In this document: piece after piece, positions 8,367 through 59,167 of the stretch
Layout: every line of letters starts with the position of its first letter
Position numbering within the stretch: position 1 is the first letter of the stretch
Origin: Kribbella sp. NBC_01245
Lineage (GTDB): Bacteria > Actinomycetota > Actinomycetes > Propionibacteriales > Kribbellaceae
Assembly (NCBI RefSeq): GCF_036226525.1
Contig: NZ_CP108487.1
Location: 4,774,001 to 4,838,000, forward strand
Length of the DNA stretch: 64,000 nt
Reading direction: 5' to 3'
The notes under the pieces: generated by a model
Told to the model about the DNA's origin: nothing
Database searches by the model: none
Seen by the model: the letters and a program-made list of their open reading frames with translations, nothing else
Translations under genes and position numbers: made by a program

Positions 8367-8505
8367 CAGGCATCAAGCGTGCAGTATTGTGCGTTTTTAG
8401 CGCTCATCAACACGAACCAACGCGCACCGGAACCCCAAGGCGGGATAACGTTGTCTCCCCCGCAACATGCCGCCATGACCGCTGTGCAAGTCAGGGTGAT
8501 CGGGT

Positions 8506-31582: not shown

Positions 31583-32782
31583 ATGTACGACCACCGCCGC
31601 CTCGGCCGTGAGCTCGAGCTGTTCGACAGCGACCCCCTGATCGGCGCCGGCCTGCCCTACTGGCTGCCAAAGGGCGCGGCCATCAAGCAATCCCTCGAGG
31701 AGTACATCCTCAAGGTCGAACGCCTCGCCGGCTACCAGCACGTCTCCTCCCCCGTGCTCGGCAAACGCGAGCTCTACGAGATATCAGGCCACTGGTCGCA
31801 CTACCGCGACGACATGTTCCCGCCGATGGACCTCGGTGGTGAGGAGGTGGTCCTCCGCCCGAGCCTCTGCCCACACCACGCGCTGATCTTCCGATCCAGA
31901 TCGCACAGCTATCGCGAACTCCCGTACCGCATGGCCGAGGTCGGCAACATGTACCGCTCCGAGTTGTCCGGCGTGATCGGCGGCCTCAACCGCGTCCGCG
32001 CCATCCAGCTGAACGACGCGCACATCTTCTGCAGCCTGGACCAGGTCGCGGCCGAGGCCCGTGCCGCGCTGGACCTGATTCGCGAGGCGTACCAGGCGAT
32101 GGGGATCGAGGCGGCCCGCTATCGGTTGTCCCTGCCGGGGCCGGGCGGCAAGTACGTCGGCGAGCCCGAGATGTGGGCCCAGGCCGCCGAGATGCTGATC
32201 GACGCGCTGGGCGATATCCCGTACGAGCGCGGGGAGGGCGAGGCCGCGTTCTACGGCCCGAAGATCGACGTACAGATAGAGGATTCGGCCGGGCGGGAAT
32301 CGACCTTGTCGACCGTACAGATCGACTTCCACCAGCCGGAGCGGTTCGACCTGCAGTACGTCGGACCGGATGGCGCGAAGCACCGGCCGGTGATGGTCCA
32401 TCGCTCGATCATCGGCAGCGTAGAACGGGCCATCGCTCAGCTGATCGAGGTCCATGGTGGCGCGTTCCCGCTCTGGCTGGCGCCGGTGCAGGTCGTCGTA
32501 CAACCGATCGCCGACGCCGAAGCGGACCAGGCCGAGGCCTTCGCGCGAGCGTGCCGCGTCGCCGGATTGCGCGCGGAGGTCTCCTGGCCGGAGGCGGGCA
32601 CCTTGGGCGCTCGCATCCGCGCCGCCCGGCACGCGCCGTACCAGGCGATCATCGGCAATCGGGAGGCCGAAGCGGGCCAGGTGGCGTTGCGTCTGCGCGA
32701 CGGCTCGCGGCTCGAGCCGATGAGCTGGGAAAAGGCTGTCGAGGCGGTGTTGTCTTCAAGTCCGCTTGAGGTTGCAAGCTAG
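31583..32782 (+). CDS. threonyl-tRNA synthetase lacking editing domains
   Basis: 399 residues; standard ThrRS has about 650 with N-terminal TGS and editing domains, both absent here. The catalytic core is complete: motif 1 region (YWLPKGAAIKQSLEEYI), motif 2 (MYRSELSGVIGGLNRVR), motif 3 (HRSIIGSVERAIAQLIE), and the three zinc ligands in LCPHH, DAHIF and VHRSI. A C-terminal anticodon-binding domain follows (VQVVVQPIADAEADQAEAFA). GAGGAG precedes ATG by 8 bases. Probably a second, stress-regulated ThrRS controlled by attenuation. Confidence 0.9.
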   Translation: MYDHRRLGRELELFDSDPLIGAGLPYWLPKGAAIKQSLEEYILKVERLAGYQHVSSPVLGKRELYEISGHWSHYRDDMFPPMDLGGEEVVLRPSLCPHHALIFRSRSHSYRELPYRMAEVGNMYRSELSGVIGGLNRVRAIQLNDAHIFCSLDQVAAEARAALDLIREAYQAMGIEAARYRLSLPGPGGKYVGEPEMWAQAAEMLIDALGDIPYERGEGEAAFYGPKIDVQIEDSAGRESTLSTVQIDFHQPERFDLQYVGPDGAKHRPVMVHRSIIGSVERAIAQLIEVHGGAFPLWLAPVQVVVQPIADAEADQAEAFARACRVAGLRAEVSWPEAGTLGARIRAARHAPYQAIIGNREAEAGQVALRLRDGSRLEPMSWEKAVEAVLSSSPLEVAS

Positions 32783-37950: not shown

Positions 37951-38026
37951 GGGGCTCTAGCTCAACTGGCAGAGCAGCGGACTTTTAATCCGCGGGTTGT
38001 GGGTTCGAGTCCCACGGGCCCTACCA
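37951..38026 (+). tRNA. tRNA-Lys (TTT), host of the island
   Basis: Complete cloverleaf: acceptor GGGGCTC/GGGCCCT (with G-T pairs at positions 1-72 and 6-67), D arm GCTC...GAGC, anticodon stem GCGGA/TCCGC with loop CTTTTAA giving anticodon TTT, T arm GTGGG TTCGAGT CCCAC, discriminator A at 38023 and an encoded CCA (38024-38026). Its last 44 bases are the left attachment site of the island. Confidence 0.97.
37981..38024. repeat. attL, 44-bp repeat
   Basis: From the anticodon-loop side of tRNA-Lys to the base after the discriminator; identical to 59887-59930. It starts at ACTTTTAATC and ends GGGCCCTAC. Confidence 0.95.
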
Positions 38027-38150: not shown

Positions 38151-39929
38151 ATGGGGTCATCGAACGGACGCGAGAAGCGAGCCACGGGCCAGGTCGAAGT
38201 TCTACCGAGCGGCTCGATCAGAGTGCGCGTCTACGCGGGGATTGACCCCGTCACGAAGAAGCGCCACTACTTGGACGAGACGGTCCCGGCGGGGCCAAAC
38301 GCTGAGAAGCTCGCAGAGAAGCTGAAGATCAAGTTCCTGAACCAGGTCCACGAGAAGCGCAACCCTCGAACCAAGGCAACGGTCAACCAGCTACTTGACC
38401 GCTACTTCGCCGAAGCCGACTTAGAGTTCAACACCGCCGATACCTACCGCGGTTATGCCGAGAAACACATCCGCCCGCTGCTCGGCGACCAGAAGGTTGG
38501 CTCCCTCGACGCCGGTGTGATGAAGTCGCTCTACGTCGAGCTACGACGGTGTCGAGAACACTGCAAGAAGACCAGGGCTCTGATCGACCACCGGACGCCG
38601 CGTGATCACGAATGCGACGATCGTTGCCGGCCGCATCAATGCCGAGGCCTCGCCCCGTCCACGGTCCGGCAAATTCACTTCATCCTGCACGGCGCGCTGC
38701 GTGAGGCCATCGTTTGGAATTGGGTAGCGACAAATCCAATCGCCACCGCGACCCCGCCACCAGCACCGAAGTCGAACCCTCGACCACCCTCGCCGAAGCA
38801 AGCAGCGCGCATCGTCAACGAGGCGTTCAAGGACCCCGACTGGGGAACGCTGGTGTGGCTCACCATGGTCACCGGACAGCGTCGCGGCGAACTCTGCGGG
38901 ATTCGGTGGGCCCACGTCGACCTCGACGTGGCGACGCTTCACTTGGAGAAGGCGATCGGTCAGCGAGGTGCGAAAAAGTGGGAGAAAGACACCAAAGCCC
39001 ATCAGGACCGCTGGATCACGCTCGACCCTGGAACCATCGAACTTCTCCGGGAGCACCAGTCGCGCTGTGAGAGCCGAGCCGCAGCCCTGGGCCTGGAACT
39101 CAGCGAAGACGCGTACGTCTTTTCTCTCTCGCCCGACGGATCGACCCACCTGGTCCCAGACTCGGTCAGCCAGCGGTACAGCAAGCTGGCCGAACGCCTG
39201 AAGATCAAGACCACGATCCACAAACTGCGCCACTACTCAGCAACCGAGCTGATTGCCGGGGGCGTTGACATCCGTACCGTCGCCGGCCGACTTGGTCACG
39301 GCGGTGGTGGGACGACGACGCTCCGGGCCTACACCGCGTTCGTGTCGCTCGCGGACCAGCGCGCCGCGGGCTCGCTGGCCACTCGAATGCCGCCACGACC
39401 ATCGACTGCGACCCCTCCAACGGCCCTCCCCGACTTCACGCCGACGAGTCCGTACGAAGTAGTCGCCGCTGCCCTCCGAGTTCAGATCGCCTCCGGAGAA
39501 CTCCGCGCTGGGCTACCACTCCCCCCGATCAAGCAGATTGCCGCAGCCCACGGCACGTCAGCTAGCACCGCCCAGCGAGCGGTGAAGCTTCTCGCTGAGT
39601 GGGGGCTCGTGGAAGTGATGTCCGGTCGCCGAACGACGGTCCGCTACGCGCACGCGATGGCAGAGCCTGCGCCAATTCCGGCCGCTGACCGCGAGACTAT
39701 AAGCAGTCCGTCAACGAGGCCCCTAGAACTTGAAGTCCGCCAACTCGGACACTCGATCTCACGCTTCCGGGCAGATGCCGACCCCGAAAGTCACCCGGCC
39801 CTTCGTGCGCTGCTCGTCGGCGCGATCCGTCGAAACGGCGGCACCTTAGAAGCCATCTCCGACTACGAGCTTGTCGTGCGACAGATCGGATCAGCCGAGC
39901 CGCTCATAATCTTCGTCGCCACCAACTGA
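38151..39929 (+). CDS. tyrosine integrase fused to a GntR-like winged helix
   Basis: 592 residues, the integrase of the island. Residues 10-110 are arm- and core-binding domains (with an inserted Cys/His stretch, CREHCKKTR ... HECDDRCRPHQC, near 130-165). The catalytic domain shows Arg in TGQRRGELCG, HKLRHYSATEL, GRLGHGGGGTTTLRAYTAF. After about residue 420 a GntR-type winged helix follows (PYEVVAAALRVQIASGELRA, then HGTSASTAQRAVKLLAEWGL) and a short C-terminal domain. The added DNA-binding domain may serve as built-in directionality or repression function, since no excisionase gene is seen nearby. Confidence 0.88.
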   Translation: MGSSNGREKRATGQVEVLPSGSIRVRVYAGIDPVTKKRHYLDETVPAGPNAEKLAEKLKIKFLNQVHEKRNPRTKATVNQLLDRYFAEADLEFNTADTYRGYAEKHIRPLLGDQKVGSLDAGVMKSLYVELRRCREHCKKTRALIDHRTPRDHECDDRCRPHQCRGLAPSTVRQIHFILHGALREAIVWNWVATNPIATATPPPAPKSNPRPPSPKQAARIVNEAFKDPDWGTLVWLTMVTGQRRGELCGIRWAHVDLDVATLHLEKAIGQRGAKKWEKDTKAHQDRWITLDPGTIELLREHQSRCESRAAALGLELSEDAYVFSLSPDGSTHLVPDSVSQRYSKLAERLKIKTTIHKLRHYSATELIAGGVDIRTVAGRLGHGGGGTTTLRAYTAFVSLADQRAAGSLATRMPPRPSTATPPTALPDFTPTSPYEVVAAALRVQIASGELRAGLPLPPIKQIAAAHGTSASTAQRAVKLLAEWGLVEVMSGRRTTVRYAHAMAEPAPIPAADRETISSPSTRPLELEVRQLGHSISRFRADADPESHPALRALLVGAIRRNGGTLEAISDYELVVRQIGSAEPLIIFVATN

Positions 39930-40489: not shown

Positions 40490-40796
40490 GCCGGCCTGTA
40501 GAGCAGTGTCGGCGGCTACCTCGATCACGACCCGCGGCTGGACCTTCACTAGTGCCACGTTGCTGTCCTGGCCGCCCCATCGGCGTGAGGTGATCTCGTC
40601 AGGCCACGGATGCGTCGCTCCGGCTGGTTTCACCACGGCTGCAAGCTCGGCGGACTGATGGTCCTTGAGTGGCAAAGTCCGGCCCACAACCTGAAGCTCT
40701 CTGCCGGTAGCGGCCAGTATCACCGCCTCGGGCCGCGTCAGCGAGCCGGTCAACGCTCCCACGATCACTTCGATCGTGTCTCGGTGGCGGACTTTT
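40490..40796 (-). pseudogene. C-terminal fragment of ATP-dependent DNA ligase (fragment 1)
   Basis: Reads KVRHRDTIEVIVGALTGSLT, then ELQVVGRTLPLKDHQSAELA and HPWPDEITSRRWGGQ, VVIEVAADTALQAG: the oligonucleotide-binding domain of LigD/LigC-type ATP ligases. Homology starts abruptly at the Lys-Val-Arg codons (40796-40788) and is lost after about 40,490. The following frame to 40301 is unrelated. Confidence 0.8.
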
Positions 40797-40987
40797 CATC
40801 GGGGTCTCTAAGGCCTCGCGTACTGTCGTGTTGAGAGTGTCGAGCGGCACGTGGGCGACACCCATATGGGGAAGTGGCAGAACCCACGAGGTGTTACTCG
40901 CTCGATGGACAGCCGGCTGTGGGATCCGGCACCGTGAAGGACCGCGGGGGTAACAGAGCCTCGCACCGTGCCAGTAGGGGGCCCGTG

Positions 40988-42367
40988 GTGATTTCACTTC
41001 AACGAGTTCTGCGCCCGGTTCGCCGCGAGCGGCGCGACCGTGATCTGGCCCGGACCCCGAAGTTCGGGCCGTTGCTACTGCAGGGGACTGTGGCCGTGCT
41101 CCTAGCGATCGGCGGCGCTGTGGGGCTCTATCTTCTCTTGGCCTGGTTGCTAGGCGTCTCACCACACCTGTCAGGCCCGACTGCCGGCCAGCCGAGCCTC
41201 CCCCGCGCTGACCAACAGAAGTTGCTGGCCGACCTCGTCAAGGTCGCCCTTGGTCTGGCAGCGGGCATCGGAGCCGCCTTCGCTCTCGTCGTCAGCTTCC
41301 GCCGCGCACGCGCCGAAGAAGCCAGCAGCCACCGCGACGACCGCCGGCTGTTCAGCAGCCGCTACCAAGACGCCGCCGATCTCCTCGGCAGCGATAAGGC
41401 CGCCGTTCGGCTTGCCGGCATCTACGCGATGGCACGCCTGGCCGACGATTGGCACGAACAGCAACAACAATGCATCGACGTACTGTGCGCCTACCTACGG
41501 CTGCCCTACAACACGTTAGACAGCGATCCCAGCGAACGAGGCGACCACGGCGAACGTGGCGAACGCGAAGTCCGCCTCACAGTCATTCGCCTCATCTCTG
41601 CACATCTCCAACCCTCGGCTACCCGTTCATGGCAAGGACGTGACCTAGACTTCACCGGCGCAGTCTTTGATGGTGGCCGTTTCAGCGGGGCCGTGTTCTC
41701 CGGCGGCAAGGTCGACTTCACCGGGGCGCAGTTCACCGGCGGCACCATCGACTTCACCGGGGCGCAGTTCACCGGCGGCACCATCGACTTCACCGAGGCG
41801 CAGTTCACCGGCGGCACCGTCCACTTCAGGCTGGCAAGGGTCGACGGCGGACGCGTCTACTTCACCAAGGCGCAGTTCGCCGGCGGCAGCGTCGACTTCT
41901 TGGCGGCAGAGTTCACTGATGGCGGCATCCCCAGCGACGAGAGGGAGCAGTTCACCGGCGGCACCGTCAGCTTCGCCGGGGCGGAGTTCTCCGGCGGCAC
42001 CGTCAGCTTCCACAGGGTGAACTTCGGCGGCGGACGCGTGTATTTCAGCAACGCGCAGTTCTCCGGAGCTACCGTCTACTTCAGGGACGCAAGGTTTTCC
42101 GGCGGCACCGTGTACTTCGATAGGGCCCAGTTCTCCGGTGGGGGCGTCGACTTCGACGAGGCGCGATTTTCCGGCGGCAGAGTTCGGTTCCCCCAGGCGC
42201 AGTTCTCGGGCGGAACCGTTGATCTCTCCGCAGCGATCCTCTTGGCCGATGGCAGCGAGCCAGAGGGCCTTCCGACGCTTTCCATACACGGGACGGTGCG
42301 CGCGAGTGACACCGGCATCGCGGGTCTGCGGCTACCGGCCTGGCTGCGCACTCCCGAGCGGCGCTGA
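40988..42367 (+). CDS. membrane protein with 12-residue beta-solenoid repeats
   Basis: 459 residues. Two membrane helices (about 30-55 and 82-103, VALGLAAGIGAAFALVVSF), a helical region with SSRYQDAADLLGSDKAAVRL and AGIYAMARLADD, then about 15 units of a 12-residue repeat with pattern V-x-F-x-x-A-x-F-x-G-G-x (residues 215-445). At DNA level the first units are near-identical 36-bp tandem repeats around 41707-41820. Automatic annotation would probably say pentapeptide repeat, but the period is 12. AGGGGG lies 6 bases before GTG 40988; GTG 40985 is equally possible. Confidence 0.8.
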   Translation: MISLQRVLRPVRRERRDRDLARTPKFGPLLLQGTVAVLLAIGGAVGLYLLLAWLLGVSPHLSGPTAGQPSLPRADQQKLLADLVKVALGLAAGIGAAFALVVSFRRARAEEASSHRDDRRLFSSRYQDAADLLGSDKAAVRLAGIYAMARLADDWHEQQQQCIDVLCAYLRLPYNTLDSDPSERGDHGERGEREVRLTVIRLISAHLQPSATRSWQGRDLDFTGAVFDGGRFSGAVFSGGKVDFTGAQFTGGTIDFTGAQFTGGTIDFTEAQFTGGTVHFRLARVDGGRVYFTKAQFAGGSVDFLAAEFTDGGIPSDEREQFTGGTVSFAGAEFSGGTVSFHRVNFGGGRVYFSNAQFSGATVYFRDARFSGGTVYFDRAQFSGGGVDFDEARFSGGRVRFPQAQFSGGTVDLSAAILLADGSEPEGLPTLSIHGTVRASDTGIAGLRLPAWLRTPERR

Positions 42368-42657
42368 ACAACCGGTCGCAGGCCGTTATCACGGGTAGTC
42401 CGGACTGTCGGAACCGATGACCTTCTCATTACGAGGAGGATATTCACCGGCGTGTATGCCCTCCACAGGCGCAAATTCTGACAGTCCGCGTGGCGCCACG
42501 CCCGCTATTCCCCATGTCTATCAGGTCCTGGGATCCACGAACGGATCCACGGCGCATCGGTGCCTGTCGCTGGGTAGCGATGCGGAAAACTGATCAATTT
42601 CCTCGCCAATGAAGGTGAGGCGAATGGGTGACGGGCTGAGATCTCAGGGCTTCAAGA
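42368..42657. other. intergenic region, no gene seen
   Basis: About 290 bases between convergent genes. A dyad (CGGACTGTC near 42402 against GACAGTCCG near 42480) is the only structure noted. Confidence 0.35.
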
Positions 42658-43671
42658 TCATCCTGTGGCCCCTTTGGGGCTTACCTCGGCGATCCCCTGG
42701 AGGGCCGCGTCGGTGTCTGCGGTGGCCAGCATCCTGTTGATGTCGGCGCCGGCCAGTGCGCCGGCCGCTGCGGAGGCCCCGACCTGGGCGACCAGATCGG
42801 TGGCGTTGCCGGCCACCCACACCCCCGGCACCTCAGTGGTGCCGGCGATTCCGGAGGCGAAACCGCGGCCCTTGTTCGGCAGGTCCTGCACCGGCAGGCT
42901 CAGACCTTCCAGGCCCTGGGCGCGGATCTGCAGCTGCGCGAGGACCGCGAGGATGCGGCGGGTCACGACCTGGCCGTCGGCCAGGCGCACCCCGGCCAGG
43001 GCACCGTCCTCGTCGTTGACGACCTGGGTGACCGGGGTGTCGATGATGCGGATGCCGCGGGCGGCGAAGCGGGCACGGCTGTCCTCGTCCAGGTCAGTAC
43101 CGTTGGTGAAGTAGGTCAGATCCTCGGTCAACTGCCGGAACAGAAACGCGTGGCCGATGGAGACCGGGCCGGTGGCGAGGATACCGATAGGCTCATCGCG
43201 CACCTCCCAGCCGTGGCAGTACGGGCAGTGCACCACACTGTGCCCCCAGTGCTCGGCAAGCCCGGGCACCTGCGGCAGCACATCCGTGAGGCCGGTGGCC
43301 ACCAGGATGCGGCGAGCGGTGATACTGCGGCCGTCGGCCAGGGTGACGGTGAACCGCAGGTCCCCGTCCGCCGACGGGGCGGCAGGCTCGGCCGAGACCA
43401 CCTCGCCGAACACGACGCGTCCGCCGTACTGGCGCACCTGCTCCCGGCCCCGTCGAAGGATCTCGGACGGCGGGGTGCCGTCCAGAGCGATGAGGCCGTG
43501 CACGGCCTCCGCGGGCGCGTTGCGCGGGGAGCCGCTGTCGATCACGACGACCGAGCGGCGGGAGCGGGCGAGGATCAGTGCACCGTTCAGCCCCGCGGCG
43601 CCCCCGCCGATCACCACCGCGTCGACGGTCCCCTCGGCCAGTGCGTCGCTCGCGTACGGAGGACTCGTCAC
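42658..43671 (-). CDS. thioredoxin-reductase-like flavoprotein oxidoreductase
   Basis: 337 residues. FAD-binding VVIGGGAAGLNGALILARSR near the N-terminus, central HSVVHCPYCHGWEVRDEPIG containing a CPYC pair comparable to the redox-active CxxC of thioredoxin reductases, and C-terminal GVWVAGNATDLVAQVGASAA. The NADPH-binding glycine motif is weak (ILATGPVSIGHAFLF). Start GTG 43671 has AGGAGG 8 bases upstream and is preferred over ATG 43704. Divergent from a TetR gene with repeated operator-like sites between them. Confidence 0.88.
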   Translation of the reverse strand: MTSPPYASDALAEGTVDAVVIGGGAAGLNGALILARSRRSVVVIDSGSPRNAPAEAVHGLIALDGTPPSEILRRGREQVRQYGGRVVFGEVVSAEPAAPSADGDLRFTVTLADGRSITARRILVATGLTDVLPQVPGLAEHWGHSVVHCPYCHGWEVRDEPIGILATGPVSIGHAFLFRQLTEDLTYFTNGTDLDEDSRARFAARGIRIIDTPVTQVVNDEDGALAGVRLADGQVVTRRILAVLAQLQIRAQGLEGLSLPVQDLPNKGRGFASGIAGTTEVPGVWVAGNATDLVAQVGASAAAGALAGADINRMLATADTDAALQGIAEVSPKGATG

Positions 43672-43768
43672 AGCCACGGCCTCCTGCCTTTCCTTATCAG
43701 TCATGGTCCGGTCAGCCCTTCGAGTTCTGGGTGGTTGGAGGCTCCTGCCGGCGAGCGCAGGACGGTTG

Positions 43769-43835
43769 TGTACTGAACTGTCAGAAACGTAGGCGGTTCT
43801 GTACTGAATTGTCAAATACGGTAGGTCGGCCCTAC
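43769..43835. promoter_or_regulatory. two direct operator-like repeats plus a palindrome
   Basis: TGTACTGAAcTGTCA at 43769 recurs as TGTACTGAAtTGTCA at 43800, 31 bases or three helical turns apart; similarity continues for about 26 bases. A partly palindromic GTAGGTCGGCCCTAC (43821-43835) lies just before the TetR start. These are candidate sites for the TetR protein controlling both divergent genes. Confidence 0.6.
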
Positions 43836-43844
43836 CTTCTATGT

Positions 43845-44468
43845 ATGGCGAGACCACGAAGCTTCGACCGCGACCACGTCCTCCATGCCGCCGAACGGCA
43901 GTTCCGCACCACGGGCTACAACGGCACGAGCGTCGACGACATCAGCGCCGCCACCGGCCTGGGCCGCGGCAGCCTCTACGCCGCGTTCGACGGCAAGCAC
44001 GGCGTGCTGCTGCAGGCGATGGCCGGGTACTTTGCCCGGCTGGGGCAGGCTGCGCCGAAGGTGCTCGCCGGACCGGACGAGGGCGCCCTGGAACGACTGC
44101 ACGGGTACTTGCTCCGCGCCGTCCACGGGGTGCCACTCGCCGACGACGTACCCCCCGCCCCTGACCGGGCGGCGGCGGCCTGCTTCGCCGCCAAGATGGC
44201 CCTGGAGCTCGGCGCCTCCGACCCCGAGGTGCAATGCCTGGCCAACGCCTGCTTCTCCGCGGTCGCGACGGCGATAGCCGAGTGCGTGCGAGCGGCGCAG
44301 CGCAACGGCGACATCGACCCCGACGCAGATCCCGACGACCTTGCGTACCTTCTGCTGACCATCATCCGCGGGACCGATGTCGTAGGCGCGTACGGCCACA
44401 GTCCCGCCCGCCTGACCTCGATTGCGGAGAGCGCGTTCGCAATGTTGCCTCGCCCGCGCCGCCGCTGA
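43845..44468 (+). CDS. TetR family regulator
   Basis: 207 residues. Begins MARPRSFDRDHVLHAAERQF; helix-turn-helix in TSVDDISAATGLGRGSLYAA; C-terminal ligand-binding domain of the AcrR-like group that has Cys near residue 110 (AACFAAKMALEL). Divergent from the flavoprotein gene; together they look like a reductase/repressor pair for redox-active or xenobiotic compounds. Confidence 0.9.
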   Translation: MARPRSFDRDHVLHAAERQFRTTGYNGTSVDDISAATGLGRGSLYAAFDGKHGVLLQAMAGYFARLGQAAPKVLAGPDEGALERLHGYLLRAVHGVPLADDVPPAPDRAAAACFAAKMALELGASDPEVQCLANACFSAVATAIAECVRAAQRNGDIDPDADPDDLAYLLLTIIRGTDVVGAYGHSPARLTSIAESAFAMLPRPRRR

Positions 44469-44712
44469 GAAGGGCACGGCCGGCCTCGTTGCACAGGCAT
44501 CTCATGCGGTCGGCCCACTTCGACGCCGCGGAGGCACGGCCCATAGGTTTACGCGCCGCCGTGACCTCGTGTGTTGGCGCGTGCTGTGGTGTTCCGGGGG
44601 TATGCGGGGTGGGCACTGCTCGGCGCTTCGGACGTGAGGCGATTCCATGGATGCTGCTGCGCAGCGACCTGGCACTGGGCGACGTGGAGAAGCTCCCACC
44701 TCGCTGACTGGC
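44469..44712. other. junction region without a gene
   Basis: About 240 bases. Two short blocks recur near 53646-53700: GGCGACGTGGAGAAGCT (44678-44694) and GCCGTGACCTCGTGTGTTGGCG (44564-44585), each with one or two mismatches. Probably ends of recombinase modules. Confidence 0.4.
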
Positions 44713-47202
44713 TCAGATCAGATTCGGATGAGGGGTGCGGAGCTGCTGTTCGGCGTCGACGCGGCGCTGCCGCAGGTGACGCAGCGACTCCTCCAGCGCC
44801 GCGACTTCACCCAGCCACGCCTGGGTTTTGGCCTCGGCCAACCGGGCCTCGGCATTGCTGGTCAATTCCTCGATCCGGGGCAGCTGGGCCGGGTCGACCT
44901 TCAGGAACCGGCACCTTATGCAGGCGTGCTCGTGGACGCACGGAGTGCCGTAGGGGCGGTGGCATTCACCTAGTGCGACCTTGCGCAGCAAGAAGTGGTC
45001 CTCGAACTCGGTCCACTCCTCGCTCGTGGCCGGCCGCATCTCCCCGAACGGCCGCGTGGCGCGGCGTCGCTCGATGAAGTGCTGGTGCGCGGCGATGACC
45101 TCCTCGGGAAACACCGCGGTGTATCCGCGGGTGGTGTCGAGGTTCAGGTGGCCGAGCAGCGTCGCCGCGATGTGCAACGGCAGCCCGGTGGAGACCAGCT
45201 CAGTGGCGAACAGGCGCCGGAAGTCGTGCGGCGTGAAGCGGATCGGCTGGCCGGCGTCGCGCAGGTCGGCCGAGGCCGCCACGGCGCCGATCATCCGCCG
45301 CACCACCGAGGGCGACATGACCTCCTGCCGCGTGCCGATGCGGCGGGCGAACAGGTGCGGGAACGGCTCGCCGTGCACCTTCTCGTGAGGGTCGTAGCGC
45401 ACCGACAATGGCACGTGGCTGTGCGGCCCTTTCGCCCGGCGCTGCACCGCGACCAGCACGATCACGAGCTCCGGTGTCATTGGCACCAGACGCTCGACGT
45501 CGGTCTTGCTGGGAACGATGTGCAGCAGCGGGACCAGCGTGCCCGACGTTGCGGAGGTGTAGTGGCGCAGTGACAGCTGCGTGAGCTCGAGCAGTTCCTC
45601 GATGCGGATCCCGGTGAGCCGCAACGTCTCGATCACCGCCCACGCCCAGAACCCGTCACTCTCGGCCGCGGTGAGGTCGACCAGCCCCATCTTGCTGACA
45701 GCGATCGCAGGCATATTGTTGGCACCGGTGATCAGATGGGCTCGGAACCGGACCGGCCGGGCGTGCTCGTAGTGGCGCGGTGGCGGCTTGTGCAGCTCGA
45801 ACACCGAGCCGTCCACGGTGAACCGTTCGCCGTGGCTGACCTGCTCGGCCGCGGCGAGTGCTCGCGCCGACCAGTCGCGGCGTCGGCCTGCCTCGGCGAC
45901 CAGCCTTGGCAGGAGCGGCGTCAACGCCCGAGTCCGGTCCTGGGTCCGCGACTGCTGGCGCCGCTTCTCCTTCGAGGCGGCCTTCGATTCGTGCCGCGAG
46001 ACGGGGCATTGAGCGACCCACGGGCCCCAGCGTGCGGGTTCGTCGTGCGCCCATTCCGCCAGGTCGCGATACATCCCCCGGACGGCGAACAGCGTCGAGT
46101 GGACCTCGCGGCGCGGTTGCCCAGCAGTGGTCAGCGCCAGACGCTCGCGCCACTGCGTCGCGACGTCAGGTGCCAGCTGCAGGCTGGACTGCGCGGGATT
46201 GATCTGCAGAACCTCCCACCAGAACAGGCGCACCAGGCGGTAGGCCCAGCCCTGCAGCGAGCCGTAGTCCATCGATGGCTTCAGCTCGCGCAAGTACTCA
46301 ACCAGCAGATCGCGGACCCCGCCGGGCGGGATGCCGTAGCGGTCGACGAGCGTTTCGACCGAGTGCTGACGGGTGTTGCCCTTGGCCGACCACGCCGCAC
46401 GCATCGTCAGCGGTTCGCCGGCGAACGGGCCGAGCGCGACCAGCAGCTCCCAGGCCAGATGCTCGCGGCGGTGCCGTCCGGAGGTCTTGACGATGTCGGC
46501 GTAGTGCAGCAGATGCTCGCCCTGGAGCTGCTCCAGGCGCAGGCCTGTGCGGATCAGCACCCTGGACAAGCACGCCTCGGCGTCACGCTGGTGCCGTTCC
46601 AGCACCGTCCGATAGGCCGGCAGCGCGCGCGTCCGCGCCAGCAGTTCAGGCTCGTGTGTCTCGAGCATGCGCTGCGGCTGGTGTGCTCCAGCGCCACTGG
46701 ACAACTGCCAGCCGTAGGACGGCCGCAGGATCCGCACCACCATCAGCGCGTTCGACGCGACCTTCAACTCCGCCGGCATGCTCTGCGGTCGGACCGCCTG
46801 ACGCCAGGTTCGCGGCGCCAGGTCAGCGCCGCTGCGCAGCCACCGCTCCTCCCAGGTGTCGCCCTCGAAGCTGTCCAGCCACTGCAGCAGCCGCCGGACG
46901 CCATAGGCGAGGTGTTTGCGGCTGACGAACACGCCGACCGTGGAGTCCAGCGTGTAGTCGATCGCCTCAGCCAGCCCCAGTCGCTGAACCAGCTGCCCGG
47001 GAGCGTCGGCGAGCAGCGGAGGCGGCGCCTGTCCGAGGTCGTAGCCATGACGCCTCAACAGCCGCCCGCCTGGCCCGAAGACTGCGTCCGGAGCCGCCAT
47101 CGCCGGAGGAGACAAAAGCTTGGTCGATGGTCCGGAGGCCGCCCGGGTGGCGTTGGCCTGCCGGCGCGGGCCAGGCAGCTGGTCAGTCGTCGGGCCGGTC
47201 AC
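44713..47202 (-). CDS. large tyrosine recombinase, 829 residues
   Basis: Catalytic residues of the tyrosine recombinase family are all present in the C-terminal third: Arg in LTGIRIEELLELT, His/Arg in FTPHDFRRLFATELV, His in LLGHLNLDTTRGY and Tyr in the same motif. A Cys/His-rich segment (CHRPYGTPCVHEHACIRC) and a coiled tail close the protein. The GTG start overlaps the stop of a truncated recombinase (47199-47375), showing that it was the second gene of a recombinase-in-series module. Confidence 0.88.
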   Translation of the reverse strand: MTGPTTDQLPGPRRQANATRAASGPSTKLLSPPAMAAPDAVFGPGGRLLRRHGYDLGQAPPPLLADAPGQLVQRLGLAEAIDYTLDSTVGVFVSRKHLAYGVRRLLQWLDSFEGDTWEERWLRSGADLAPRTWRQAVRPQSMPAELKVASNALMVVRILRPSYGWQLSSGAGAHQPQRMLETHEPELLARTRALPAYRTVLERHQRDAEACLSRVLIRTGLRLEQLQGEHLLHYADIVKTSGRHRREHLAWELLVALGPFAGEPLTMRAAWSAKGNTRQHSVETLVDRYGIPPGGVRDLLVEYLRELKPSMDYGSLQGWAYRLVRLFWWEVLQINPAQSSLQLAPDVATQWRERLALTTAGQPRREVHSTLFAVRGMYRDLAEWAHDEPARWGPWVAQCPVSRHESKAASKEKRRQQSRTQDRTRALTPLLPRLVAEAGRRRDWSARALAAAEQVSHGERFTVDGSVFELHKPPPRHYEHARPVRFRAHLITGANNMPAIAVSKMGLVDLTAAESDGFWAWAVIETLRLTGIRIEELLELTQLSLRHYTSATSGTLVPLLHIVPSKTDVERLVPMTPELVIVLVAVQRRAKGPHSHVPLSVRYDPHEKVHGEPFPHLFARRIGTRQEVMSPSVVRRMIGAVAASADLRDAGQPIRFTPHDFRRLFATELVSTGLPLHIAATLLGHLNLDTTRGYTAVFPEEVIAAHQHFIERRRATRPFGEMRPATSEEWTEFEDHFLLRKVALGECHRPYGTPCVHEHACIRCRFLKVDPAQLPRIEELTSNAEARLAEAKTQAWLGEVAALEESLRHLRQRRVDAEQQLRTPHPNLI

Positions 47203-47375
47203 GCCGGCAGCCCGAGCAGTTCACGAACCGCCGCGTCGTCATAGGCCGGCTCGATGACCGGACCGACCGCGCGGGGCCGGGCGTAGTGCTCCAGCACCTT
47301 CGAGACCAGGTCCTCCAACCGCGGCTGGGCGTAGATCTGAGTCGTGGACACGCTGGCGTGCCGCAAGGCGGCCGG
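47199..47375 (-). pseudogene. C-terminal remnant of a tyrosine recombinase
   Basis: Reads LRHASVSTTQIYAQPRLEDL and ends ELLGLPA before the GTGA overlap with the 829-residue recombinase. The active-site His region and the tyrosine are visible; everything upstream is replaced by DNA-ligase sequence at about 47,370. Confidence 0.75.
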
Positions 47376-47634
47376 CGATGTACATGGTGTTCGACCTGCT
47401 CGGGGTCGGCGGGGTCGACCTGCGGAACATGCCCTGGCTACGGCGCCGGCAACGGCTCGAAGACCTCGCCGCGGCCTGGTCGGGACCGCTGCAGCTGTGC
47501 CCGGTCACCTACGACCTGGACGAGGCCCGCGAATGGTTCGACGCGCTCGGCGCAATGGGGATTGAGGGCCTGGTCGTGAAAGGCCGCCGCACCCGCTATC
47601 TGCCCGGCCACTCGTCCGGCTGGCTAAAGGTGCG
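47370..47634 (+). pseudogene. central fragment of ATP-dependent DNA ligase (fragment 2)
   Basis: Reads MYMVFDLLGVGGVDLRNMPW, then GIEGLVVKGRRTRYLPGHSS and GWLKVR: nucleotidyltransferase motifs of an ATP-dependent ligase (VFDLL, EGLVVK, WLKVK). Homology stops exactly after the Lys-Val-Arg codons (AAAGGTGCG at 47626-47634). The matching downstream half is at 49810. Confidence 0.85.
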
Positions 47635-47817
47635 TTCTGACGGGGTGCCCAGTGGTCGGTTCGCCGGCGTTGCTGTGTTGTGCCTGGTCAGCGTGCTGCT
47701 CGCCGGTCGGTCGTCGTGCGCGACGGCTGTTGCACACGCGGACAAGCATGCTTGGTTTCATCGACACCTGACCTCCCTCCACGCCGACAGCGGTCGGCGC
47801 GGGGTTTACTGGGGCCG

Positions 47818-49086
47818 GTGAAAGCCCAATGGCGTGTCTTAGTCGACCATCGGAACTTCCGACGTCTGTTCGCTGGTAACTCGATCTCCCTCCTGGGATC
47901 GAGCGTGACGACCGTTGCGTTGCCCTTGACCGCCGTCCTGGTCCTCGGCGCATCGCCGGTACAGATGGGTTTGCTGGGAGCGGTCTCGTTTCTGCCGCAC
48001 CTTGTCTTGGGCTTGCCGGCTGGGGTGTGGGTAGACCGGTTGTCGTACCGCCGGGTCGTTGTCGGTGCTGACCTGTTGGCCGCCGCTGCGCTGATAGCAG
48101 TGCCGATTCTGGCCGTGGCGGGACTGCTGCAGATGTGGCAGCTGTACGTCGTTGTCGTGATCACGGGGACCTGCAGCCTGTTCTCCGTGATCGCGGGCCA
48201 GGCGTTCGCGCCCATACTGGTTCCCCGCAGCGACCTGCTGGCAGCCAACAGCGCGTTCGCACTCAGCAACTCCGTCGTCGCCACGAGCGGCAGCGCCCTC
48301 GGCGGCGTCCTGGTCCAGCTCCTCACCGCCCCAGCAGCGATCGCTGTCGACGCGGCCTCGTTCCTGCTGTCGGCCATCTCGAAGGCGCGGATCACCGTCG
48401 CGGGCCGACCGACTGGCACCGAGCCGGCCAAAGAGTCGTTGTTTAAGGGTATTTGGGGCGGCTTGCGCGCAGCGCTTGAGCATCCCGCACTACGGGCGAC
48501 CACGATTGCCGCCACCATCGGCGCTTTGGCAGGTCAGATGCAGGCGGTGATCATGGTGCTGTTCCTGGTCCGTGACCTCGGCTTGTCGGCTGGACTGGTG
48601 GGCCTGGTCATCGCTGTGGCAGGGGTCGCCGGAATCGTCGGTGCCACCATCGGGGTGCAGATCACTGGACGGCTTGGCAATGGGCCTGCCTTCGTCGTCG
48701 GCATGACTTTGTCGAGTCTGGCCGGACTGGTGATGGCCGCCGCAGGAGGACCGGCGGCGCTGGTGTTGGCGGTTGTCATCGTCGCGCAGCTCCTGCATGG
48801 CTGGGGGCCAACGCTGTACGGGATCAACCAGCAGACCATCCGCCAGATTTTGATCGCACCCGAACTCCTCGCTCGAACTCAGGCCACCTGGCGGTTCCTG
48901 GTCTTCGGAATGCAGCCGATCGGCGCCCTCCTCGGCGGCACGCTCGGCGCCCTGGTCGGTTTCCGCGCCACCCTGGTGATCAGCAGCCTGGTCATGCTGA
49001 CCGGCACCACCCTCGCACTGCTAAGCCCACTACGAACGCTGCGCCAACTCCCAGGCAGCGAGACCGCAACACACCGTCGTCAATGA
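47818..49086 (+). CDS. MFS transporter, macrolide-efflux-like
   Basis: 422 residues with 12 predicted membrane helices; start VKAQWRVLVDHRNFRRLFAG, with the cytoplasmic loop LPAGVWVDRLSYRRVVVGAD between helices 2 and 3 (motif A-like). Likely exports small hydrophobic compounds. GTG 47818 lies seven bases after TTTACT. It is cargo within the segment that interrupts the ligase gene (47634-49810). Confidence 0.85.
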   Translation: MKAQWRVLVDHRNFRRLFAGNSISLLGSSVTTVALPLTAVLVLGASPVQMGLLGAVSFLPHLVLGLPAGVWVDRLSYRRVVVGADLLAAAALIAVPILAVAGLLQMWQLYVVVVITGTCSLFSVIAGQAFAPILVPRSDLLAANSAFALSNSVVATSGSALGGVLVQLLTAPAAIAVDAASFLLSAISKARITVAGRPTGTEPAKESLFKGIWGGLRAALEHPALRATTIAATIGALAGQMQAVIMVLFLVRDLGLSAGLVGLVIAVAGVAGIVGATIGVQITGRLGNGPAFVVGMTLSSLAGLVMAAAGGPAALVLAVVIVAQLLHGWGPTLYGINQQTIRQILIAPELLARTQATWRFLVFGMQPIGALLGGTLGALVGFRATLVISSLVMLTGTTLALLSPLRTLRQLPGSETATHRRQ

Positions 49087-49161
49087 CCGCAGAGCGCCCA
49101 GGGGTTCTCTAGTACGTCGTTCCTTGAGCTGTCCCGCTTGCAGCTGCTGTGGAGCTCGGTC

Positions 49162-49703
49162 TTACTGCCGCGTGTTGAGGTGAGTCATCAGCTCGCGGTT
49201 GGCCGCCCGGGCGGCGGCAAGCTCTTCGCCGCGTTCTTCGAGCTGACGGCGCAGCTCGAGCAGTTGTTGCTCGCGGTCGGTGAGTGTCTGCTGGAGGCTG
49301 CGGATGTCGTCGGGTGCCCCTAAGCCGCTGTCGCGGAAGACGGCTTCGCCGAAGGTCTCCGAGAGCCGGTTTTCCAGGGAACGGATGTGTTGCTGCAGCC
49401 GGACCCCTCTGCATGGCGCAGCCACAGCATGAACGCGCCCAGCCGATCGACCGCGTCCCACCAATCCCTGTGCACCTGCCCGCACCACGACAAGTACAGC
49501 GAAACCGACGTCGCGTGCGCCCTCGTCGTACTCTCCGCGCAACCCCGGCCGAACCGCAGATGCCGCAAGAAGTCGTCCGCGGCCCGATGCATCCGAAGAT
49601 CCCAGTCCAGCACCGTCCAGTACCGAACACCCGACGGCAACTGAACCGCAAACGCTCGCACTCCGCCTCCCGCGGCCCACCCGTCACCCGACACGAGCGC
49701 CAA
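49162..49703 (-). pseudogene. recombinase module remnant: integrase N-terminus joined to a coiled-coil tail
   Basis: From 49703 to about 49410 the frame encodes the N-terminal DNA-binding domain of a tyrosine recombinase (VRYWTVLDWDLRMHRAADDF, SVSLYLSWCGQVHRDWWDAV). The frame then changes to a coiled-coil tail (HIRSLENRLSETFGEAVF, LRRQLEERGEELAAARAANR) ending at 49162, which matches the DUF6262-type protein usually found last in such modules. An internal deletion has removed the rest of gene 1, all of gene 2 and the start of gene 3. Confidence 0.7.
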
Positions 49704-49809
49704 CGTAGGACCTCGCCGGCCCGCACGCCCTCACCCCAGAACGGGGTGTCGTACACGTGCCAAATCGGTCCTCAACGCGACAGTGCACGACACAAAATCC
49801 AGCCCTTCA

Positions 49810-50212
49810 AAAGGTGCGCCATAGGGAGACTCTCGACGTTCTGGTCGGCGCAGTGACCGGTTCGCTGGCACGGCCTGAGGCAGTGATCGCCGGCCGCTAC
49901 CGGGGCCAGGTGCTCGAGGTGGTGGGCCGAACAGTGCCGCTGAAGGACGCCCAGGCCGCCGACCTGGCCAAGGTGCTGAAACCGGCCGGCCCCAGCCATC
50001 CGTGGCCGGACGAAATCGCCTCGCACCGGTGGGGCGGCAGGGACAACCGGGTAGCCCTGACGAAGGTCCAGCCGAAGGTCGTGATCGAAGTAGCCGCCGA
50101 CACGGCTCTGCAAACGGGCCAATTCCGCCACCCGCTGCGATTCGTCCGGATACGCGCAGAGTTGCACCCAAAGGACGTTTCGACACTTCCCGGTAACGGT
50201 GGTGGATTGTGA
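49810..50212 (+). pseudogene. C-terminal fragment of ATP-dependent DNA ligase (fragment 3)
   Basis: Starts with AAAGGTGCG and reads KVRHRETLDVLVGAVTGSLA, VVGRTVPLKDAQAADLAKVL, HPWPDEIASHRWGGRDNRVA and HPLRFVRIRAELHPKD to a proper stop at 50212. It is the direct continuation of the fragment ending at 47634. A GTG at 49757 could still give a 151-residue protein, but without the catalytic half. Confidence 0.85.
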
Positions 50213-50277: not shown

Positions 50278-50301
50278 TGCATCAATGTTGTGTTTGATGC
50301 A
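50278..50301. promoter_or_regulatory. inverted repeat over the start of the recombinase operon
   Basis: TGCATCAA (50278-50285) and TTGATGCA (50294-50301), perfect 8-bp arms with 8 bases between. The start codon GTG 50290 lies in the spacer. Candidate operator for the HTH protein of the operon, or a recombinase site. Confidence 0.5.
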
Positions 50302-51447
50302 ACGGTGTCTGATGCCGGAATCGAGCTGCCAGGAGCCGCTCATCTTGTCTTGGTCGCGGATCTCGGTCTGCTGCAGCCGGAGCGGTCGGTGCTGGACGCG
50401 ATGGTCGAGGGCTGGGAGCGGCAGCAGCGAGTGCGGTTCTTGAAGGCCGACACGATCCGGCGGCGCCACAGGGTGGTGGCTCGGATGGTTGAGTTCTCCG
50501 GCTTGTATCCGTGGCAGTGGACCGCGGCTGAGGTTGAGGCGTTCATCGATCAGATGCGGTCCGGAGGTGCGCCGATCGTAGCGTCGACGGCGCGGAGCTA
50601 CTTGATTGATCTGCGGTTGTTCCTCGAGTACATCACCGACCGTAGGTATGGCTGGCCGGATGTGTGCCGGGAGCGCTTTGGCGCTGTCCCGTTGCAGGTG
50701 CTGGATGAGTGGAACACCGTCATCCACGTCAGCCAGTACGAAGGGTCACCGGGGCGCCGTCCACTGTCGTATGACGAGGTCCAGCGACTGTTCGACGCCG
50801 CCGATGACCTAGTCGACCAAGTCCGCGCGAGCGGCCGCAAGGGTGTCCTGGCTGCGCACCGCGATGCGGTGGCGCTGAAGACGGTCTACGCGTTCGGGCT
50901 ACGCCGCCAAGAGACGTGGGGGCTGGACCTGGTCGACCTGCGCCGCAATCAGAAGGTTCCGCAGTACGGCGACTTCGGCGCGTTGATGATCCGGTGGGGC
51001 AAATCGTCGCGCGGAAGCCGCCCGAAGCGCCGCACGGTGCTGCTGGTACCGGAGATGGACTGGATCGTCCCCGTCCTCGAGCAGTGGACCGCCGAACTGC
51101 GGCCGCGGTTCGATCCGGGTGCACTGGTGGCGATGTGGGTGACCGAGCGGCGCAGCCGCCTCTCGATGCGCGGCCTCAACCAGGCCTTCGCGGTCGCCCG
51201 GGACGCGGCCGGCCTGGATCCGGTGCTCGATCTGCATTGCCTGCGGCACTCGTATGTGACTCACCTGGTCGAGTTCGACTACCCCGAACGGTTCGTGCAA
51301 GAACAGGTCGGGCACGCCTACGCAGCGACCACCGCGATCTACACCAGCGTGTCCGATGCCTACCGCAACACCCTGCTGCAACGCTCACTGACCGGGCGGA
51401 ACCCTGAACTGTGGAACGACAATCTGGACGGCGAGGTCGACCGATGA
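50290..51447 (+). CDS. tyrosine recombinase (first gene of a three-gene module)
   Basis: 385 residues. N-terminal SAM-like domain (LKADTIRRRHRVVARMVEFS) and catalytic domain with Arg in YAFGLRRQETWGLDL, LHCLRHSYVTHLVEF, QVGHAYAATTAIYTSVSD. The full catalytic set is present. It overlaps the HTH gene by 4 bases. Confidence 0.9.
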   Translation: MFDATVSDAGIELPGAAHLVLVADLGLLQPERSVLDAMVEGWERQQRVRFLKADTIRRRHRVVARMVEFSGLYPWQWTAAEVEAFIDQMRSGGAPIVASTARSYLIDLRLFLEYITDRRYGWPDVCRERFGAVPLQVLDEWNTVIHVSQYEGSPGRRPLSYDEVQRLFDAADDLVDQVRASGRKGVLAAHRDAVALKTVYAFGLRRQETWGLDLVDLRRNQKVPQYGDFGALMIRWGKSSRGSRPKRRTVLLVPEMDWIVPVLEQWTAELRPRFDPGALVAMWVTERRSRLSMRGLNQAFAVARDAAGLDPVLDLHCLRHSYVTHLVEFDYPERFVQEQVGHAYAATTAIYTSVSDAYRNTLLQRSLTGRNPELWNDNLDGEVDR

Positions 51448-51782
51448 TCAAAAAGATGGGGATCGAGTGGAACCTGCGGCTGCGGATGGCCGAGCAGGAC
51501 CTCTACTCCACCACTGAGCTGGTGCCGCTGCTGGCCGAACGAGGGATCCACCTTTCCCGCGAGCAGGTCTACCGTCTCGTGACATCCACACCGCAGCGGC
51601 TCAGCACCGACGTGCTCGCCGCCTTGTGCGACATCCTCGGCTGCACGCCCAATGACCTGATCACGGTTGCCGTGGTCAACCAGCAGGTCTCCAAGCCGGC
51701 TTCAGGCGGCTCCAGCTCGGCCGCCGGCGGCAGCCCAGCGCCGCGACGGACAACCATCCGTCGGCCCGGAGAGGCGATGTGA
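51444..51782 (+). CDS. Cro/C1-type HTH protein
   Basis: 112 residues. Residues 5-75 form an XRE/HTH_26 domain (LVPLLAERGIHLSREQVYRL, LSTDVLAALCDILGCTPNDL); the tail is Ser/Ala-rich and disordered. Overlaps both neighbouring recombinase genes by 4 bases. Probably regulates the module or assists recombination. Confidence 0.85.
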   Translation: MIKKMGIEWNLRLRMAEQDLYSTTELVPLLAERGIHLSREQVYRLVTSTPQRLSTDVLAALCDILGCTPNDLITVAVVNQQVSKPASGGSSSAAGGSPAPRRTTIRRPGEAM

Positions 51783-53323
51783 CGGCCGATCCCAAACCTG
51801 CCGTCCAAACGCGAAGACGCATCGCCTGCGGCGGATGCGGTCGGCTAGAGCCGCCGAATGCGCTCTGGCCGATCGGACCGGTCTGCAAATTCTGTTACCG
51901 GACCGCCCGAGCGAATCCGGCGTCCTGCCAGGCCTGCGGGCAAGTCCGAGTGCTCATCGCCGAGGCACCGACCGCGGCAGGACCAACCGTCCAACTGACA
52001 ACCTGCGGACCGTGCGCCGGCAGTCATCTCAGCTACCTGTGTGACCGTTGCGGCGGCGGTGATGAGCCCTACAAGGACGGGAGTTGCGTGCGATGCGCTG
52101 CCCGCGAAAAGCTCACCACTGCCTTCACCGGCCCAGATGGACAGCTGAGTCCACAGGCCGCGCTCGTGGTTGACGCGATGGCCGCCAGCCGCCGACCGCG
52201 ATCAGTGCTGAAGTGGCTGTCGAACCCGCGCGGCGGCGCAGAAACGCTCCGCGAAATCTTCGGCCGGGGCCAGTTGGTCACCCACCAAGTGCTCGATCAA
52301 CTCAACGAGATCACCGTCTGGTCGCTTCGTCGCACACTCACCGACCTGAACATCCTCCCGGTTCGTGTTGAAACCCTCGCCCAGCTCGAAACACGGATCC
52401 ACAAGGTCGCTGCGCCCCTTCCGGGCCGCAACCGCGAGCTCATGCTCACCTATGGGACCTGGTGGGTCCTGCGGCACGCTCACCGACAGCATGAACGCAC
52501 CGGCCGGTTCAGCCGCGCCCAATTGCGATCGGCTGCACGGCGCATCACCACGGCAGCCGGCCTCCTGGCCTGGGCCGACGGCCAGGGCCTCAGCTTGGAC
52601 CGCCTGACCCAGGGCGACCTCGAGCGATGGATCGAGGGCTGCCCACTCGCGCGGGAAGCCGCCGATTTCCTGCGCTGGGCGTACCGGCGACGGTTCGCCG
52701 AGCAGCTGAGCCTTCCCCATCAGCCGTGCTCGGATCCGGATATCGTCATGAGCGATGACGAACGCTGGGCCCTGCTGTCGCGCTGCCTGCACGACGCCAC
52801 CCTCCCACTTGAGGTGAGAGCGGCTGGAGCCGTGATCCTCCTCTACGGCATTCCACTGGCCAAGGTCGTCGAACTCACCAGCGCGCACCTCAGCCAACGC
52901 CCTGGCCCTGCGACTGACCGTGGGATACCGGACGGGCTGAGGGTGTCGCTGGACTCCCCGGTGATCGCTGCGCCACCAGCTCTAGGCCGCCTACTGGCAC
53001 AGCTCCCAGCTGCTCCCGCGAACCCGAGATCCCGCCCACTGATCGAGGCTGCCGAAGACCCCCGCGATTGGCTCTTCCCCGGCAGATCCGCTCTCGGCCA
53101 CGTCAATGCCTCGGTCATCGCGAAACGACTCAAAGACCACGGCATCCGCGTCCGGCCTTCACGCAACGCCGCCCTCATCGCTCTGGCCGCTGACCTCCCA
53201 GCATCGGTAGTCGCCACACTGTTCAACATCAGCATCAGCGCGGCCGTGCGGTGGTCACGGCGAGCCGGCCGGGACTGGAACGCCTACATCGCCGCGGAAG
53301 CAGCTACTCGCGCTACCCAATGA
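51779..53323 (+). CDS. zinc-ribbon protein with degenerate recombinase fold
   Basis: 514 residues. Three Cys pairs in the first 110 residues suggest zinc ribbons (CGGCGR ... CKFCYR; CQACGQ ... CGPC; CDRCGG ... CVRC). The rest follows the layout of a tyrosine recombinase (SRAQLRSAARRITTAAGLLA, VILLYGIPLAKVVELTSAHL), but where HxLRH and LGH...Y are expected it has RPSRNAALIALA and LFNISISAAVRW. The nucleophile and the catalytic His/Arg are therefore missing, and it probably acts as a structural partner. Confidence 0.75.
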   Translation: MTADPKPAVQTRRRIACGGCGRLEPPNALWPIGPVCKFCYRTARANPASCQACGQVRVLIAEAPTAAGPTVQLTTCGPCAGSHLSYLCDRCGGGDEPYKDGSCVRCAAREKLTTAFTGPDGQLSPQAALVVDAMAASRRPRSVLKWLSNPRGGAETLREIFGRGQLVTHQVLDQLNEITVWSLRRTLTDLNILPVRVETLAQLETRIHKVAAPLPGRNRELMLTYGTWWVLRHAHRQHERTGRFSRAQLRSAARRITTAAGLLAWADGQGLSLDRLTQGDLERWIEGCPLAREAADFLRWAYRRRFAEQLSLPHQPCSDPDIVMSDDERWALLSRCLHDATLPLEVRAAGAVILLYGIPLAKVVELTSAHLSQRPGPATDRGIPDGLRVSLDSPVIAAPPALGRLLAQLPAAPANPRSRPLIEAAEDPRDWLFPGRSALGHVNASVIAKRLKDHGIRVRPSRNAALIALAADLPASVVATLFNISISAAVRWSRRAGRDWNAYIAAEAATRATQ

Positions 53324-59092: not shown

Positions 59093-59167
59093 CCGTACCG
59101 ACTGCGATTCATCCGCATACGAGCAGAGTTGCAGCCACAAGACATCCCGACACTTCCTGGTAACAGT
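59093..59167 (+). pseudogene. tail of ATP-dependent DNA ligase (fragment 4)
   Basis: Reads YRLRFIRIRAELQPQDIPTL, nearly the same as the end of fragment 3 (HPLRFVRIRAELHPKD). Nothing upstream belongs to a ligase. Confidence 0.65.

Follow-up and report, generated by a model that had tools for sequence, protein, structure and literature searches.

Transposon Tn554 carries tnpABC and inserts at one preferred attachment site, in the gene radC. In actinobacteria, a Tn554-related class combines one short and one abnormally long (611-828 amino acids, aa) tyrosine recombinase, with or without TnpC, and the accessible part of its description names no target gene (PMC3414803). Within the excerpts available of the respective sources, RIT elements carry three recombinases of 315-410 aa (PMC3414803; PMC10214605), GInts possess a ginABCD operon, which encodes three integrases plus a small protein, and sit in a protein gene between imperfect flanking repeats (PMC5385486), and the SEs of Gammaproteobacteria have the gene order intA-tfp-intB-srap (PMC10214605). 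Footprints are described there for Tn554, SEs and GInts (PMC10214605; PMC5385486). The present analysis concerns an accessory ATP-dependent DNA ligase gene, found in fragments in a 64,000-nucleotide stretch (hereafter, the window) of Kribbella sp. NBC_01245, namely positions 4,774,001-4,838,000 of a single-contig 8.68-Mb genome. We consider it quite probable (roughly 0.85) that Tn554-related site-specific transposons use this gene as a landing pad with several sites.

In the proposed arrangement, element families each with their own tyrosine recombinases (a short TnpA, a long TnpB and, in one family, TnpC) would each use an attachment site at fixed ligase codons: KWDG[YF]|R for type A, LDG|EL for type B, W-x-P|P for type C and W-x-K|V-[KR] for type D. 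Ligase pieces were mapped in 43 genomic stretches, with recurrent breaks at reference residues 15/16, 57-59, 130/131 and 180. Fixed breaks, conserved ends, uninterrupted orthologues that serve as empty sites, and type A elements at plasmid ligases of two other orders were observed, as were recombinase genes just inside the ends of type A and, with fewer loci, of types B, C and D. An earlier note on the window had described a single site; three further insertion sites with other ends, recombinase-free inserts and Tn554-related recombinases are additions to it.

The likeness to the actinobacterial Tn554-related class lies in adjacent tyrosine recombinases of ~390 and ~830 aa in type A, where no TnpC was seen, and in type D relatives that appear to add a DUF6262 TnpC; types A and D match the two layouts given for the class in the available part of PMC3414803. 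It extends to a strongly preferred site, since the ligase adjoins type A ends in 11/14 and 13/15 cases and type D ends in 21/23 (6/8 of the new ones). The elements differ in that here the target is a ligase, several positions are used, and recombinase-free cassettes with the same ends are frequent. The class trait taken for comparison was a 6-bp footprint from the donor site. Here, the core repeats at site D are imperfect, with left and right cores differing in three loci (L013, AAAGTCCG/AAGGTTCG; L060, AAGGTGAA/AAAGTCAA; L055, AAGCTCAA/AAGGTCAA), and by analogy these appear to resemble the footprints of Tn554, SEs and GInts. With Tn554 itself the elements share site specificity, the tnpABC layout and, it appears, a small core footprint; they differ in the target gene and in that four element lineages share one gene. 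GInts and SEs (the latter compared by description) are likewise cargo islands moved by several tyrosine recombinases, but their four genes, in the parts of the descriptions available, include a third integrase-like protein. No third integrase was seen in locus L107 and the plasmid type A elements, which have two recombinases, so that we do not class them as GInts. RIT elements also have multiple tyrosine recombinases, yet one of those found here measures ~830 aa, which places the elements outside that group. In the open-licence PMC literature, we found no account of what actinobacterial Tn554-related elements target, and likewise none of a ligase serving as target, of multiple lineages using a single gene, or of cassette derivatives. 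Hence, the enzyme class is known, and these three features are apparently undescribed.

The features of the window that concern the ligase are as follows.

40490-40795, minus strand: ligase fragment 1, reference residues 180-283, starting at Lys-Val-Arg; the minus-strand frame is open from 40795
40796-40880, minus strand: second type D right end, adjoining ligase fragment 1
44713-47202, minus strand: type A TnpB, a tyrosine recombinase of 829 aa (PF00589, 9e-17), 66% identical to the TnpB of L107, a KWDGY-site element
47208-47372, minus strand: last 55 aa of a type A TnpA, with 81% identity to the L107 TnpA across 53 aa, cut at the fragment 2 junction
47372-47635, plus strand: ligase fragment 2, about reference residues 88-182, ending at the LKVR codons (tblastn)
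47626-47634, plus strand: left copy of AAAGGTGCG, the target core and also native ligase codons
47635-47672, plus strand: left end of the type D element (KVR site), TTCTG followed by a G run
47680-49086, plus strand: cargo MFS transporter (PF07690, 9e-25), 468 aa as called, with the true start probably further in
49165-49703, minus strand: recombinase remnant, the N-terminal part of TnpA (49323-49703) fused into the C-terminal part of TnpC
49726-49810, plus strand: type D right end with inverted arms GTGTCGYACACGTGC / GACAGTGCRCGACAC, from an alignment of 14 copies
49810-49818, plus strand: right copy of AAAGGTGCG, flanking the insert
49811-50212, plus strand: ligase fragment 3, in frame to its own stop, reference residue 180 to the end

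The earlier note took fragments 2 and 3 for halves of one gene around a 2.18-kb insert, and the frames, repeats, MFS gene and remnant on which it relied were all confirmed. The insert measures 2175 bp (47636-49810) and contains the MFS gene and the recombinase remnant; fragment 2 matched TIGR02779/NF006078 of NCBIfam below the cutoff. The remnant reads as the N-terminal ~100 residues of a type D TnpA, which share 48-56% identity with relatives from Streptomyces and Pseudonocardia, followed by a DUF6262-like TnpC end. Given that the start of TnpA runs into the end of TnpC, as expected of a tnpABC transposon with an internal deletion, the insert is, to judge from its sequence, an internally deleted type D (KVR-type) element carrying an MFS gene. 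The 9-bp repeat was rejected as proof of insertion on its own, because ~0.41 copies of AAAGGTGCG are expected by chance per 64 kb and a third, unrelated copy lies at 54944. It is the conserved end beside each C-terminal ligase fragment that points to a signal rather than a coincidence.

Fragment 1 marks another joint of type D; its opposite side was not found within the window. The earlier note had counted three independent, coinciding breaks: the coincidence at the Lys-Val-Arg codons is real, but their independence did not hold, since fragments 2 and 3 come from one event and fragment 1 from another, so that the window shows two breaks. Beside the second type D end, a 497-aa protein (40874-42367) with a long pentapeptide-like repeat (GGTxDFTxAQF) may be cargo of that element. 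A small piece resembling ligase C-terminal sequence also lies at 59102-59167.

At the other edge of fragment 2, the type A TnpA is cut where the fragment starts, which suggests that a deletion probably took the remaining tnpA and the type A right end, along with ligase sequence as far as ~residue 88. What lies beside fragment 2 is a truncated type A (KWDGY-type) element. No type A end was found in the window, so the element cannot be bounded on the left. The window ligase, of which fragment 2 is a remnant, would have carried a type A element on its left, lost part of tnpA together with the right end and ligase codons, and received a type D cassette with the MFS gene.

A 21-mer of the type D end, with up to three mismatches allowed, occurs at five places in the 8.68-Mb genome (reversed control, 0), and all five copies adjoin ligase C-terminal sequence beginning Lys-Val/Ile-Arg/Lys. 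The coincidence of breaks persists after alignment. The bases upstream of C-terminal ligase fragments are alike both within this genome and across other species. In 38 Kribbella genomes, a sequence-only model built from 14 ends, which excluded the ligase codons, gave 23 matches at E <= 3.3e-5: the 14 training ends, one identical copy (G011:C5) and eight new ends. Six of these eight adjoin the ligase codons KVK, KVK, KIK, (K)GVK, KVK and KWK, several being decayed further on. With the training set included, the right end adjoins the ligase at 21 of 23 places, which supports the earlier proposal that a recombinase family integrates at this codon triplet. Thirteen weaker matches (E 0.001-0.01) were left out of the counts; two were inspected, and neither is at a ligase. 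Among the 11 left joints listed, L068 is a plain deletion and nine of the ten others have TTCTG after the codons, L013 being a variant. At the right joints, the end is present in 14 of the 16 listed and absent in L064 and L069. Loci L055 and L056 (G011) share an identical 2.2-kb stretch, with ligase and a PNPOx cassette, on two contigs, which is either a duplication or an assembly duplicate.

Type A, at residues 15/16, is the commonest break point, with 16 loci in all. Its left joints read CTTCACTGAAC in 13/13, and its right joints GTTCAGTCAACT in 10/10 listed. When the left-end pattern was applied to 391 genomes of the order, 14 matches were obtained in nine genomes, all Kribbella (reversed control, 1), and 11 of them follow the ligase KWDG[YF] or a decayed form of it, in L143 by only six residues. 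A 19-mer of the right end, searched in 84,980 genomes, matched 15 times (13 in Kribbella, one in Promicromonospora, one in Actinopolymorpha), with ligase following in 13. In L136 (K. albertanoniae), a type A right end is followed by CCTTCTTTGAAC, which is similar to the type A left end, and tandem elements are possible there.

The window TnpB was compared with 72,556 plasmids, of which 286 records matched, and the best 20 of these were considered. Seven of the 20 are >50% identical, from Mycolicibacterium (2), Cellulosimicrobium (1) and Paenarthrobacter (4), that is, from Mycobacteriales and Micrococcales. All seven have an A-like right end upstream of tnpA (GTTCAGTCAAC, or GTGCAGTTAAC in Paenarthrobacter), and six adjoin an opposite-strand DNA ligase gene, entered at ~residue 16 (the KWDGY position). 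Five of these ligases were called by tblastn, annotation or Pfam, and the sixth, H1, by PF01068 + PF04679 and tblastn; the H1 neighbour is annotated as an RNA ligase, but has the DNA-ligase fold (PF01068, PF04679). The seventh element, H2 (M. chubuense), has only ~20 ligase-like residues (E 0.12), perhaps a remnant. The plasmid ligases at type A elements are ~30-50% identical to those of Kribbella. Ten further elements, six of lower similarity and four related to type D, lie at no ligase within flanks of 4-5 kb; one of the ten splits a gene annotated as a PDDEXK nuclease. This contrast, 6/7 A-like elements versus 0/10 others, indicates that use of the ligase site characterises the A lineage across orders, whereas ligase use by type D is seen only in Kribbella. 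Ligases related to the accessory one, all <60% identical, match 1514 plasmid records. In L185, a plasmid of M. madagascariense, a second and intact ATP-dependent ligase (7507-8574, ~32% identical to Kribbella's) follows tnpB, beside a type A element whose own position is at a ligase gene. In L193, a plasmid of Arthrobacter sp. NicSoilB11, two pieces with a PDDEXK nuclease annotation flank a related recombinase pair, a sequence arrangement that suggests a sister lineage using another gene as its fixed target.

At site B, left joints read GTTATCTGAGG in 4/6, with one variant and one different, and the five listed right joints share an end; in the 38 genomes, the left-end pattern matched only the four joints behind it. 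Site C is represented by a single right joint and three left joints, of which two are identical and the third is related to them; its ends form an inverted repeat. Allowing one mismatch, the type C pattern gave four matches, two of them new; these lie inside an ABC-transporter-like gene and were rejected as element ends. The idea that the sites are merely the most conserved DNA of the gene holds only partly: among 302 four-codon windows from six intact ligase genes, B stands at percentile 98, C at 92, D at 85 and A at 60. In a tally over the 38 genomes, 18 have at least one insertion at the four ligase sites, several of them decayed.

Nineteen inserts are bounded on both sides and range from 0.82 to 12.4 kb, some edges being approximate. 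Many consist of a single long reading frame without recombinase, and the longer ones carry Tn554-related tyrosine recombinases. The single-gene cargo includes a pyridoxamine-oxidase-like protein, a GNAT acetyltransferase, an S41 peptidase, an ABC-transporter protein, a membrane protein without Pfam match and, by reading only, methyltransferase-like proteins. In L107 (12.4 kb), a TnpA of 392 aa starts just inside the right end, and TnpB is broken by a later insertion; TnpA homologues occupy this position just inside the A right end at nine loci. In one stretch of the window's genome, L018, TnpA genes of types B and C stand beside B and C left ends. The TnpA types are 24-45% mutually identical where alignable, type D being judged from its Streptomyces and Pseudonocardia relatives. 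A short and a long recombinase side by side were seen for type A in L107, in the window (829-aa TnpB) and in the plasmid elements; for type D, such a pair (378 + 816 aa) was seen only in L199, a relative from Streptomyces, and for types B and C, TnpA alone was seen. Against PF19776 (DUF6262; cutoff 29.0), the type D TnpC of L106 scores 28.7 bits and that of its S. albus relative (52% identical) 29.6. No TnpC is annotated after the type A TnpB in the plasmid elements examined.

The intact ligase of genome G019 matches Pfam PF01068, and its best NCBIfam match, NF006078, is below the cutoff. The earlier note had allowed that orthologues elsewhere might never be interrupted at this codon; what was found is an uninterrupted gene in G019 and a split copy in G011, which are 92% (N-terminal part) and 89% (C-terminal part) identical. 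In the window genome, no intact copy of the accessory ligase was found among the best 8 of 12 matches, and at least two intact ligase paralogues, 34-39% identical, are present. Given that the accessory ligase is patchily present and often broken, it is probably dispensable; a split copy would then cost little, and an intact copy would be a fresh target.

As to mechanism, TnpA and TnpB would cleave the core within the ligase and insert the element at that point via a circular copy. Internally deleted or cargo-only cassettes that keep both ends would move by recombinases acting in trans, as suggested by recombinase-free cassettes with conserved ends and varied cargo. The recombinases at the ends, the base-exact joints, the lack of large target duplications and the imperfect core repeats fit, by analogy, the movement described for Tn554, GInts and SEs.

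An improbable alternative, though the least so of those weighed, is one ancient insertion per site, followed by duplication of the split ligase, divergence and cargo swapping, with no repeated targeting. The question was addressed on a tree of the C-terminal ligase part (31 of 32 assembled rows, as L106 lacks this part) and on one of longer sequences (25 rows), which have few well-supported branches (7/27 and 9/21). On the former, the D state requires eight changes, at least five of them forced by well-supported branches (shuffled mean ~10.5); on the latter, the A state requires five, at least four forced (shuffled mean 8.6), and the D state seven. The labels are nonetheless somewhat clustered, as an ancient insertion would have it: 39 and 50 of 500 shuffles are as low for D, and 6 and 5 for A, and four of the five D copies of the window genome lie near each other on the tree. 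Intact and split copies nevertheless alternate on well-supported branches, which speaks against a single insertion, although the trees cannot separate gain from precise loss. Against it also stand the close identity of the intact G019 and split G011 copies and the position of type A beside ligases of other orders that share merely ~30-50% identity with Kribbella's. Decay of a redundant gene by unrelated indels, with coincident ends produced by homologous recombination copying an end together with the ligase C-part, would account for copies broken further (e.g., L065, L070, L071, L118) and for the left edge of fragment 2, which resembles a plain deletion. We regard it as very unlikely, given joints that are base-exact across species despite unrelated cargo, and four positions with different, specific ends and recombinase genes just inside them.

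The recombinase-free single-gene cassettes and the palindromic end sequence recall an integron-like array (IntI + attC), but the four sites each have their own unrelated end, so there is no common attC, D ends in the window genome occur only at ligases, and the recombinases score 20.6-43.6 bits against integron-integrase models with a cutoff of 265; such an array is accordingly highly improbable. Least credible of all is that the inserts are spliced elements (group I/II introns or inteins) and that the ligase is still made. Sites A, B and D do lie at or beside catalytic motifs, as is frequent for introns and inteins, and the D left joint can read GTGCG, yet no intron family reached Rfam gathering scores in the window and six loci, each of the three ligase-sense frames of the window insert contains stops, and the inserts hold unrelated cargo on either strand and, in some cases, tyrosine recombinases.

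Several observations weigh against the landing-pad interpretation itself. Two of the eight new type D ends (G031:C17, G003:C4) and three of the 14 type A left-end matches are away from ligase; among the right ends, L136 is without ligase, and L132 has ~three ligase-like codons, then a D-like left end. Type D relatives on Streptomyces and Pseudonocardia plasmids are at a ligase in 0/4 cases, so the ligase preference of D may be young or local. Neither the left ends of the plasmid A elements nor an N-terminal ligase part was found there. Site C is known from just three left joints and one right joint, and Kribbella shows only parts of D-type tnp genes, the complete operon being seen in Streptomyces. 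The A label is clustered, with only 5-6 of 500 shuffles as low, and four of the window genome's five D copies cluster on the tree, so some may stem from one insertion. Present-day mobility of the cassettes is inferred from sequence.

Other parts of the window were also considered. A recombinase set at 50290-53323, comprising a 385-aa integrase, a 123-aa HTH_26 protein and a 514-aa protein with cysteine pairs, was rejected as part of the system, the 385-aa protein having little or no similarity to types A-D; the 514-aa protein has relatives at 1.41 Mb (32% identical) and in L060 (31%). At 38151-39929, directly after a tRNA (37951-38023), lies a 592-aa tyrosine integrase with a C-terminal GntR DNA-binding domain (PF00589 + PF00392), an unusual fusion that is likely at an integration site. 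A 399-aa threonyl-tRNA-synthetase-like protein (31583-32782) has, by reading only, an apparently shortened N-terminus.

Given that the target, both ends and an empty site have been identified, the attachment sites, the orientation and mobilisation in trans are testable. Several recombinase lineages on one gene offer a tractable form of the old question of why certain genes become insertion hotspots, and plasmid relatives of the ligase could supply such elements with a vehicle. Among the genes carried by the cassettes are those for transporters, acetyltransferases and a peptidase. We tentatively put forward, as a possibility more doubtful than the landing pad itself, a gene-platform cassette system, in which the ligase would be a common pad with at least four sites, recombinase-free single-gene cassettes would be shuffled among ligase copies by recombinases acting in trans, and transposon lineages would have independently converged on its codons. 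If true, adaptive genes would be exchanged in an integron-like manner although no integron is involved, with the ligase as a pad in genomes and, through its relatives, on plasmids.

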